From Planctomycetaceae bacterium (GTDB taxonomy: Bacteria; Planctomycetota; Planctomycetia; Planctomycetales; Planctomycetaceae): a stretch of DNA of 46,320 bases. The notes under the pieces are model-generated. The model had not been told where the DNA came from, ran no database searches, and saw only the letters and a program-made list of their open reading frames with translations. Positions 19,056-21,113 of this stretch are shown one piece after another. A program made the translations under genes and the position numbers. Location: assembly GCA_021732995.1 (NCBI GenBank), contig JAKFWA010000068.1, positions 179,099 through 225,418 on the forward strand, read 5' to 3'. The stretch's first letter is position 1, and every line of letters starts with the position of its first letter.

Positions 19056-19502
<447 letters not shown>

Positions 19503-19535
19503 AGGGGCTTCAATCAAAGCTGTCTCGGAGGCTCA

Positions 19536-19587
19536 GGAACAGGTCGTTCCGACAATAGATTTCACGCCGGAGCAGAAGTATGCTCCG
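19536..19587. promoter_or_regulatory. Two palindromic sites upstream of the sigma-54 promoter
   Basis: CGGAGCA-6-TGCTCCG (19568-19587) is a perfect 7-bp dyad, and GGAAC-5-GTTCC (19536-19550) is a perfect 5-bp dyad. They sit roughly 80-130 bp upstream of the -24 element, the usual distance for an NtrC-like enhancer-binding protein. Binding is inferred from position and symmetry; they could also serve the divergent arsC gene. Confidence 0.45.
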
Positions 19588-19663
19588 AGCGCGACGACCC
19601 GGCCAGTTGAGGTGCGTGTTCCAACTGGTTTGACAGGAAGTGACGACTCCCCGAATGGATTGG

Positions 19664-19680
19664 CTGGCACGGTCATTGCT
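19664..19680 (+). promoter_or_regulatory. Sigma-54 (-24/-12) promoter of the glutamine synthetase gene
   Basis: CTGGCACGGTCATTGCT matches the sigma-54 consensus YTGGCACGRNNNTTGCW at every defined position. The invariant GG (19666-19667) and GC (19678-19679) are separated by exactly 10 bp. Transcription would start near 19691, leaving about 400 nt of leader before the GTG start of the GSII gene. Glutamine synthetase genes are classic sigma-54/NtrC targets in proteobacteria. Confidence 0.75.
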
Positions 19681-19691
19681 TTAAGGAGTGG

Positions 19692-20090
19692 CATTACCAA
19701 GTTGCGGAGTTCTCCGACTGGATGAAGCTCAACGATTGCAGCGACGGTTTTTGCGAAGGTTAACGTGTTTCGCAGGAAATTACGTGGGCGCCAAGGTGAG
19801 CTCAAGTTCGTAAGGCGCTCATCTGTTCGGTTCCTCGAGGGAGTCTCACCCGGCTTGCTGGGCATCACGCGTGCTTCAAGTAAGTGCAGCTTTGCATATG
19901 TTTGAGGCAAAGGCCAAACAGCCGAAATCAACAACAGAAAGGAGCGCTCGACGAAAGCTGAAATTCACCGCTCGGGGTCGTAAATCCGCCAGCGATGAGC
20001 ATGATGCATGTTGTTGTTCCTGGCAGCCGCAGTCCGCGTGCCCAGGATTGGTTGTCGGAAGTCATTCACAGTTCATTTGAGGATTCACAA
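19692..20090 (+). other. Long 5' leader of the glutamine synthetase message
   Basis: This stretch of about 400 bp lies between the predicted sigma-54 start site and the GTG start of glutamine synthetase. It holds no gene I can support. A 13-codon ATG frame (MKLNDCSDGFCEG at 19703-19744 or nearby) and a 60-codon frame (19898-20080, Lys/Arg-rich N-terminus) are open, with composition unlike the neighbouring genes. A regulatory leader is possible; no riboswitch fold is recognised. Confidence 0.4.
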
Positions 20091-21113
20091 GTGTCGTCAG
20101 CATCTAAGTTTAAACTCGAGTACGTGTGGTTGGACGGTTACCTCCCGGAACCGGGCCTTCGCAGCAAGACGAAGGTCGTTAGCAAAGAACCAGGCTCTGT
20201 CGCTGACTGCCCGATTTGGGGCTTCGACGGCAGCTCCACGCAACAAGCCGAAGGCAAGAGCTCTGACTGTGTGCTGAAGCCCGTTGCCTTGTATCCGGAC
20301 AGCACCCGCATCAACGGCTACCTCGTGATGTGCGAAGTGCTGCTGCCCGATGGAACTCCGCATCCGTCGAACTTCCGCGCGACCGTTGAGCAGAGCGATG
20401 ACCTCTGGATCGGTTTCGAGCAGGAATACTTCTTCTGGCAGGATGGCCGTCCGCTCGGCTTCCCGCTGGAAGGCTATCCAGCGCCGCAAGGCCCGTACTA
20501 CACCGGCGTGGGTTACAAGAGCGTTGGCGACACTGCTCGCCAGATTGCTGAAGAACACATCGACATCACTCTCGACGCTGGTATCGAACTCGAAGGTATC
20601 AACGCCGAAGTGGCCAAGGGACAGTGGGAATTCCAGATCTTCGGCAAAGGCTCGAAGAAGGTTTGCGACGACATGTGGATGGCTCGCTACCTGCTCCTCC
20701 GCGTCTGCGAGAAGTACGGCGTCGACATCAACTGGCACTGCAAGCCGCTGGGCAAAGACGTGGACTGGAACGGCTCGGGCATGCACACCAACTTCTCGAC
20801 CGCGATCCTCCGCGATAAGGGCGGCAAGGAATACTTCGAGAAGCTCATGGCCGCCTTTGATAAGTACAAGAACGAGCACATTGCTGCTTACGGTCCTGAC
20901 AACCACTTGCGTCTGACTGGTCTGCACGAGACCCAGTCGATCGACAAGTTCAACTACGGTGTCGCGAACCGCGGCGCTTCGATCCGTATTCCTCACAGCT
21001 TCGTCGCGAACGACGCTTACAAGGGCTACCTCGAAGATCGTCGTCCCAACTCGCAAGCCGATCCGTACAAGATCGTCTCGCGAATCCTCAAGACGATTGC
21101 TTCTGTGAAGTAG
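20091..21113 (+). CDS. glnII: Glutamine synthetase, type II (GSII/GlnII-like)
   Basis: A 340-residue enzyme that joins ammonia to glutamate using ATP. It follows the short eukaryote-like GSII layout, not the 470-residue GSI: a beta-grasp N-terminus with FKLEYVWLDGYLPEPGLRSK and WGFDGSSTQQAEGKSSD, then the catalytic part with GFEQEYFFW, EGINAEVAKGQWEFQIFG, DVDWNGSGMHTNFST, LTGLHETQSIDKFNYGVANR and SIRIPHS. No adenylylation-site loop of GSI type is expected. The GTG start at 20091 follows GAGG by 8 bases and matches the family N-terminus; an ATG at 19995 would add 32 unrelated residues. A terminator lies 37 bp past the stop, so it is a single-gene unit. Confidence 0.93.
   Translation: MSSASKFKLEYVWLDGYLPEPGLRSKTKVVSKEPGSVADCPIWGFDGSSTQQAEGKSSDCVLKPVALYPDSTRINGYLVMCEVLLPDGTPHPSNFRATVEQSDDLWIGFEQEYFFWQDGRPLGFPLEGYPAPQGPYYTGVGYKSVGDTARQIAEEHIDITLDAGIELEGINAEVAKGQWEFQIFGKGSKKVCDDMWMARYLLLRVCEKYGVDINWHCKPLGKDVDWNGSGMHTNFSTAILRDKGGKEYFEKLMAAFDKYKNEHIAAYGPDNHLRLTGLHETQSIDKFNYGVANRGASIRIPHSFVANDAYKGYLEDRRPNSQADPYKIVSRILKTIASVK

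Follow-up and report, generated by a model that had tools for sequence, protein, structure and literature searches.

The 46,320-nucleotide stretch of planctomycete DNA that was analysed, referred to here as the window, carries a gene for a GSII-type glutamine synthetase at 20091-21113; this gene and all of the features described below lie on the + strand unless otherwise stated. The protein, read from a GTG start, scores over the cut-off for both Pfam PF00120 and PF03951, and its best NCBIfam match is NF041605 (GlnII), at 365 bits against a cut-off of 500. There are two PF00120 matches in the source genome, this GSII and one other protein, whose sequence reads as that of a GlnT-type enzyme. 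An ArsC-like phosphatase gene (19056-19517) lies upstream of GSII on the opposite strand, and a PP2C-like gene lies downstream. The GSII start codon was placed by homology.

Sigma-54 promoters conform to the consensus GG-N10-GC (TGGCAC/TTGC). Upstream of GSII the sequence TGGCACGGTCATTGCT, at 19665-19680, has no mismatch to this consensus, with GG at 19666-19667, GC at 19678-19679 and 10 bp between them; the letters of the perfect -24/-12 element reported in the initial annotation are therefore confirmed. Nowhere else in the 46-kb window is TGGCACGNNNNTTGCW matched without a mismatch, and matches with up to three mismatches number 71, not above chance (89.8). The source genome also encodes RpoN (PF04552, one match, 209 bits) and 18 strong sigma-54 activator domains. 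With +1 predicted from the -12 position at about 19691 and the GTG start at 20091, the predicted 5′ leader of the GSII mRNA (19691-20090) would be around 400 nt, the length given in the initial annotation; this agrees with a relative in the same genus, in which the GTG start falls at the same residue. A 17-bp TGC-N11-GCA palindrome, TGCTTTAAGGAGTGGCA (19677-19693), overlaps the -12/+1 region, and its meaning is uncertain.

Two palindromes had been noted upstream of this promoter and both are present: CGGAGCA-N6-TGCTCCG at 19568-19587 and CCAGTTG-N12-CAACTGG at 19603-19628, their starts being 96 and 61 bp ahead of the promoter 17-mer. Such a pair is no more than mildly unusual, since division of the window into 357 consecutive 129-bp tiles gives 49 with at least one inverted repeat with 7-bp arms and 10 with two separate ones. 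Neither is retained as a palindrome in the same-genus relative or in genus g43, where other short inverted repeats occur. What is kept of the first, in genera g1 and g43, is TATGCTC (19579-19585 in the window), found in the same-genus relative and in g43 at 73-87 bp before the promoter 17-mer; this may be a second, vegetative promoter, which is a guess. The dyads are thus real as letters and unremarkable, and they are not conserved as dyads, the CGGAGCA dyad surviving in these relatives only as TATGCTC. Their proposed role as NtrC-type enhancers was not borne out, because the conserved sites with the shape of an NtrC box lie instead downstream of the promoter, inside the leader.

Conservation of the sigma-54 element was assessed with self-set weights built on the consensus. 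The family set, from the GTDB family of the window, comprised 69 loci, these being 67 of 68 GSII places together with two partial genes; L107, which has too little upstream DNA, was left out, giving 68 places from 67 genomes and 22 genera. A score of at least 15 within 600 nt was found on the coding strand in 41 of the 68 places; the corresponding counts were 1 for the reverse strand and 1.3 for shuffled sequences. Six of 26 named planctomycete loci also reached this score, but five of those six are the same DNA as family places, so that outside the family the count is one of 21 (L006). The expectation that the element would recur upstream of planctomycete GSII genes therefore holds for the family and hardly for the other named loci. 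One locus, L086, whose GSII is 90% identical and which keeps an exact tandem of the sites described below, gave no sigma-54 match within 800 nt upstream of GSII. Among verrucomicrobial GSII loci, 32 of 52 scored at least 15, versus 1 on the reverse strand, and at a score of at least 14 the element lies 55-141 nt before the start in 46 of the 54 loci L030-L083. Furthermore, a scan of all 3-mer dyads in the verrucomicrobial upstream regions ranked GCA-N7-TGC, the core of the sigma-54 element, first (50/52 against 6.0 expected).

The same dyad scan in the family upstream regions ranked a different pattern first, TGC-N11-GCA, present in 60 of 68 places (10.1 expected); in the 69 family upstream regions it occurs 127 times, against an expectation of about 9.5 and counts of 11-40 for other spacings. 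In the window two such 17-bp palindromes, overlooked in the initial annotation and predicted to be operator sites, lie in the leader: site 1, TGCTTCAAGTAAGTGCA, at 19872-19888 (about +182 to +198), and site 2, TGCATATGTTTGAGGCA, 21 bp further on at 19893-19909 (about +203 to +219). A tandem of this kind (no more than one mismatch, spacing 20-22 bp and mostly 21) was found in 54 of 68 family places, compared to 0.4 in shuffled and 0 in reversed sequences. It accompanies a sigma-54 element scoring at least 14 in 50 places; the element occurs alone in 6, the tandem alone in 4 and neither in 8, and five family loci of genus g34 have neither. In its inner bases site 2 shows a tendency towards TGCYYA...GCA and towards a purine at position 14.

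In 44 of the 50 places with both features the tandem lies downstream of the sigma-54 element, at a small number of fixed offsets measured from the promoter 17-mer to the start of site 1. An offset of 61-63 nt (about +35) is seen in 23 of the 44 (g6, g29, g42, g47 and g53), one of 93-96 nt (about +67) in eight (g5, g16 and g27) and one of 203-215 nt (about +182) in ten (g1, g31, g43 and L143 of g53, the last doubtful as its promoter call is weak); three places have other offsets. The window, at 208 nt, belongs to the 203-215 group. A look-up by position only, at the 61-63 nt offset, found 9-12 of the 12 defined bases in 27 of 28 loci of g6, g29, g42, g47 and g53. The best tandem is upstream in the remaining six places (L089, L105, L140, L147, L154 and L158), with one mismatch in each, and for L140 the position-based look-up showed that a weaker copy is present downstream, where the tandem usually lies. 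Outside the family, 4 of 21 named planctomycete loci (L006, L010, L011 and L014) have a tandem with 22-bp spacing, and the verrucomicrobial GSII upstream regions show no excess of TGC-N11-GCA (10 versus 8.9).

The exact tandem at 19872-19909 is the only one in the 9.39-Mb source genome. With up to one mismatch there are 37 tandems in that genome, fewer than the 67 of the control, and exact tandems number 0-7 per family genome against 0-6 in the reversed control (4 in the source genome). A genome-wide tandem search, in which L177-L206 were inspected among the matches listed, was accordingly rejected as a means of finding the regulon, as it gives too many chance matches. A composite pattern of promoter plus tandem, with a spacing range that stops short of the longer spacing of the window itself, was found in 20 of 397 genomes of the class, once in each, compared to 3 in the reversed control. 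Sixteen of these 20 matches precede GSII, 13 by coordinates, two by reading frame (L257 and L270) and one, L272, by inference, as its contig ends ahead of the gene; the other four (L256, L273, L274 and L275) lie elsewhere.

Since the sites are transcribed, they could in principle act as DNA or as RNA. The outer pairs of the tandem (n = 168) are consensus in 151 cases, changed but still complementary in 2 and changed without complementarity in 15; five of these 15 are T-G and five come from L143. The sites used for covariation were picked with no more than one mismatch and so are uninformative on the outer pairs; at the inner positions there is no consistent covariation, pair 4/14 of site 1 giving p = 0.016 and the pooled sites p = 0.16. 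As the outer changes are mostly uncompensated and the inner positions lack consistent covariation, a DNA operator for a dimer is favoured. The tandem as a set of hairpins or a riboswitch core was set aside on these pair counts and on the presence of sites of the same kind upstream of amtB. At gathering scores Rfam gave no matches in the window and none in eight loci searched, where there were three sub-gathering matches.

The leaders contain other conserved elements. A third, GGAGCGCTC, lies at 19941-19949 in the window, 48 nt from where site 2 begins; it is present in 11 of 68 leaders (the window, L085, L086, L090, L091, L159, L163 and L165-L168) compared to 0.25 in shuffled sequences, and in the nine loci of g1, g31 and g43 the corresponding distance is 47-51 nt. 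By eye, it pairs with a downstream GCTCCC in g31 and g43, and L166 has a short frame following AAAGGAG. A hairpin with a 7-nt NRYGTNN loop, and stems that vary in sequence and remain paired, is found in 21 of 27 leaders of g6, g29, g42, g47 and g53, against 0.75 in shuffled sequences and none on the reverse strand, for a locus set and loop that were chosen after inspection; of 32 other leaders, 2 have it. It lies about 96-160 nt before the start in L112, L098, L106 and other family GSII leaders, is absent from the window leader, and has the appearance of an RNA element of its own that has yet to be named.

The TGC-N11-GCA sites are shared with amtB. The source genome has an operon of the order amtB-glnK-amtB-glnK-glnK, with three PII paralogues (L251 1132-5609, contig C32; genes named by eye, amtB matching PF00909 as well). 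A sigma-54-like sequence, CTGGCACACACTTTGCC, lies 184 nt before its amtB, and there are four TGC-N11-GCA sites at -393, -367, -350 and -208, together reaching from -393 to -192, on a background of 0.33-0.39 per kb. Over 32 amtB loci the motif occurs 36 times, versus 3-17 for other spacings; it is present at 18 of the 32 (5.4 expected) and ranks eighth in the dyad scan. At five of these loci (L221, L222, L231, L233 and L246) a motif lies 113-127 bp upstream of the sigma-54 17-mer, and at L221 and L222 there are also sites near or after the promoter. Among the matches listed in the genome-wide search, the exact tandem precedes a GSI-like gene (L182, by eye) and an amtB (L180) of relatives. Sigma-54 and nitrogen control of GSII, as proposed in the initial annotation, are thus supported: the promoter element is conserved both within the family and among Verrucomicrobia, rpoN is present, and GSII and amtB-glnK have operator sites in common. 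Two further features were seen in passing. L252 (1883-5968) encodes a 1361-aa fusion of an AmtB domain with a sensor histidine kinase and receiver domains, adjoined by a receiver-HD-GYP-like gene (all except AmtB by eye), and PII-like frames were found by motif at 14 verrucomicrobial loci, where they lie 3.3-4.0 kb upstream of GSII in 13 cases and just downstream of it in one.

The protein that would bind these sites is probably a response regulator of the NtrC subfamily. The curated NtrC model (TIGR01818, cut-off 558.6 bits) has no match above its cut-off in any of the 170 family genomes, and so the regulator has been left without an assignment. The best score to this model in the source genome is that of L114, at 491.4-491.5 bits; L122 (477.2 bits) and L118 (473.8 bits) are also below the cut-off, L114 and L122 coming from a comparison of 4 of the 18 strong activators and L118 from the 170-genome search. 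L114 has REC, AAA+ (with GSFTGA) and Fis domains and is encoded just downstream of a kinase-like frame (by motif and by eye). A further NtrC-like regulator of the source genome, L127 on contig C62, has GAFATA in place of the GAFTGA loop, a change that probably leaves it unable to activate sigma-54. In the flanks of the GSII loci (around 1.5-4 kb, less at contig ends), a motif scan found no gene for an enhancer-binding protein.

A tree of GSII proteins, for which 12 short translations were dropped, a subset of the outside loci was used and no support values were printed, has two deep clades. The GSII of the window groups with Pirellula-type and verrucomicrobial enzymes, and most family loci fall in the second clade. 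Tandem leaders are present in both clades, and the long-offset leader with GGAGCGCTC is common to g1 and g43 of the first clade and g31 of the second. As the tandem occurs in both clades and there is no verrucomicrobial excess, the distribution of the operator tends to go with the group of the host instead of the lineage of the enzyme; exceptions are the g34 family loci without an operator and, outside the family, the four loci with the 22-bp-spaced tandem.

Taken together, these observations make it fairly probable that GSII is driven by sigma-54 and an NtrC-family activator working from an enhancer inside the leader. RNA polymerase with sigma-54 would transcribe GSII from the element at 19665-19680, and dimers of an NtrC-family response regulator would bind at 19872-19909, where the 17-bp TGC-N11-GCA sites lie 21 bp apart. 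The pair of dimers would form a platform for assembly of the AAA+ hexamer, which could then reach back to the promoter by DNA looping and bring about its opening; with the platform at this position, the enhancer would be part of the transcribed leader itself, downstream of the start site. This regulator would also control amtB-glnK from sites mostly upstream of its sigma-54 promoter, joining these genes in one nitrogen regulon.

Alternatively, the tandem might be the target of a nitrogen-responsive repressor, or of an activator that serves as a roadblock, so that polymerase is stopped in the leader. Repressors often act downstream of the promoter, where the sites lie in 44 of 50 places, and the extra site in the window overlaps -12/+1; however, the distance differs by group (about +35, +67 and +182), and sites 113-127 bp before the 17-mer at five amtB loci would suit an enhancer better, an argument that is not decisive given the further sites near or after the promoter at L221 and L222. 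A pair of dimer sites separated by a double turn, at a variable distance from a sigma-54 promoter and on either side of it, fits an enhancer-binding protein better than a repressor, and we regard repression or a roadblock as rather unlikely. Action of the leader as RNA after transcription, through hairpins of the tandem or a riboswitch or ANTAR-type element, would be in keeping with transcription of the sites and with the structured appearance of another part of the leader in five genera (the NRYGTNN hairpin). It is nevertheless very unlikely, as the outer pairs are mostly uncompensated, the inner pairs do not covary consistently, 17-mers of the same form lie upstream of amtB promoters, Rfam gives nothing at gathering in the window or the eight loci, and the window does not have the NRYGTNN hairpin.

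The remaining alternatives concern the DNA upstream of the leader. That the upstream palindromes are the true enhancer in the source genome would agree with their position, since 96 and 61 bp before the promoter 17-mer is a usual enhancer distance, but neither survives as a palindrome in the same genus or in g43 or g31, and such repeats are common in the window; we give this possibility very little weight. It is also quite improbable that the sigma-54 element is vestigial and that GSII is expressed mainly from a vegetative promoter at TATGCTC. Such a promoter would fit two observations, that g1 and g43 retain TATGCTC 73-87 bp upstream of the sigma-54 promoter and that many GSII genes of relatives have no sigma-54 element; yet the element in the window is perfect, and 50 of 68 family places have kept an element alongside the tandem. 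Vegetative and sigma-54 promoters may coexist at GSII, as two promoters do at E. coli glnA.

Returning to activation by sigma-54 from within the leader, a wider proposal can be made more tentatively. The family may possess a standard class of sigma-54 promoter with the enhancer in the leader at a few fixed spacings, which has been kept or rebuilt before two GSII lineages that are about 60% identical and which is read by an NtrC-like regulator with a DNA code of its own. If this is true, polymerase would cross the activator platform in each round of transcription and the response could be self-limiting. The operator would in addition define a concrete candidate nitrogen regulon in planctomycetes, comprising GSII and amtB-glnK, with a GSI-like gene as a further member in one relative, and these loci would provide a natural, repeated set of sigma-54 promoters with a downstream enhancer, useful for questions of enhancer position and looping.

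Sigma-54 control of glutamine synthetase is classical. A 2025 survey of predicted sigma-54 regulons places this control mainly in Pseudomonadota, describes a limited presence of NtrB/NtrC in Planctomycetota and mentions in passing glutamine synthetase-akin proteins of Planctomycetes (PMC12316311). Searches of open-licence PMC papers showed none on a GSII gene with a leader enhancer, none that treats a downstream enhancer together with sigma-54 and an enhancer-binding protein, and none on planctomycete nitrogen-limitation transcriptomics with rpoN.

The arrangement seen here resembles several known systems and differs from each. The enterobacterial NtrC box, TGCACCAnnnTGGTGCA, is given in two papers as having a 17-bp TGC-N11-GCA frame (PMC8743547, PMC4987338), and glutamine synthetase and glnK-amtB are described as shared targets of enterobacterial NtrC in the latter (PMC4987338). 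The glnALG and glnK-amtB operons of enterobacteria are thus like the planctomycete loci in their -24/-12 promoters, 17-bp TGC-N11-GCA sites and shared targets. The box itself is TGCACC/GGTGCA in enterobacteria, whereas in the family of the window bases 4-5 differ and the inner bases tend to YYA/YRR; furthermore, the enterobacterial glnA product is a GSI and its NtrC sites lie upstream of the promoter, while here the enzyme is a GSII, no curated NtrC is present and the sites are downstream. The rhizobial (alphaproteobacterial) glnII promoters, which depend on sigma-54 and NtrC, are similar in that a GSII gene is under sigma-54, but again the sites are upstream. Verrucomicrobial GSII genes share a sigma-54 element before a related enzyme and differ in that the element is close to the start and is accompanied by no TGC-N11-GCA excess. 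Downstream sites are reported for FleQ, though they did not appear in the passages of one paper that were checked for them, and rocG of Bacillus subtilis (SigL/RocR) is a natural case of a sigma-54-type promoter activated from a downstream enhancer; at rocG the enhancer is located past the end of the gene, whereas the enhancer predicted here lies inside the 5′ leader and is conserved across genera.
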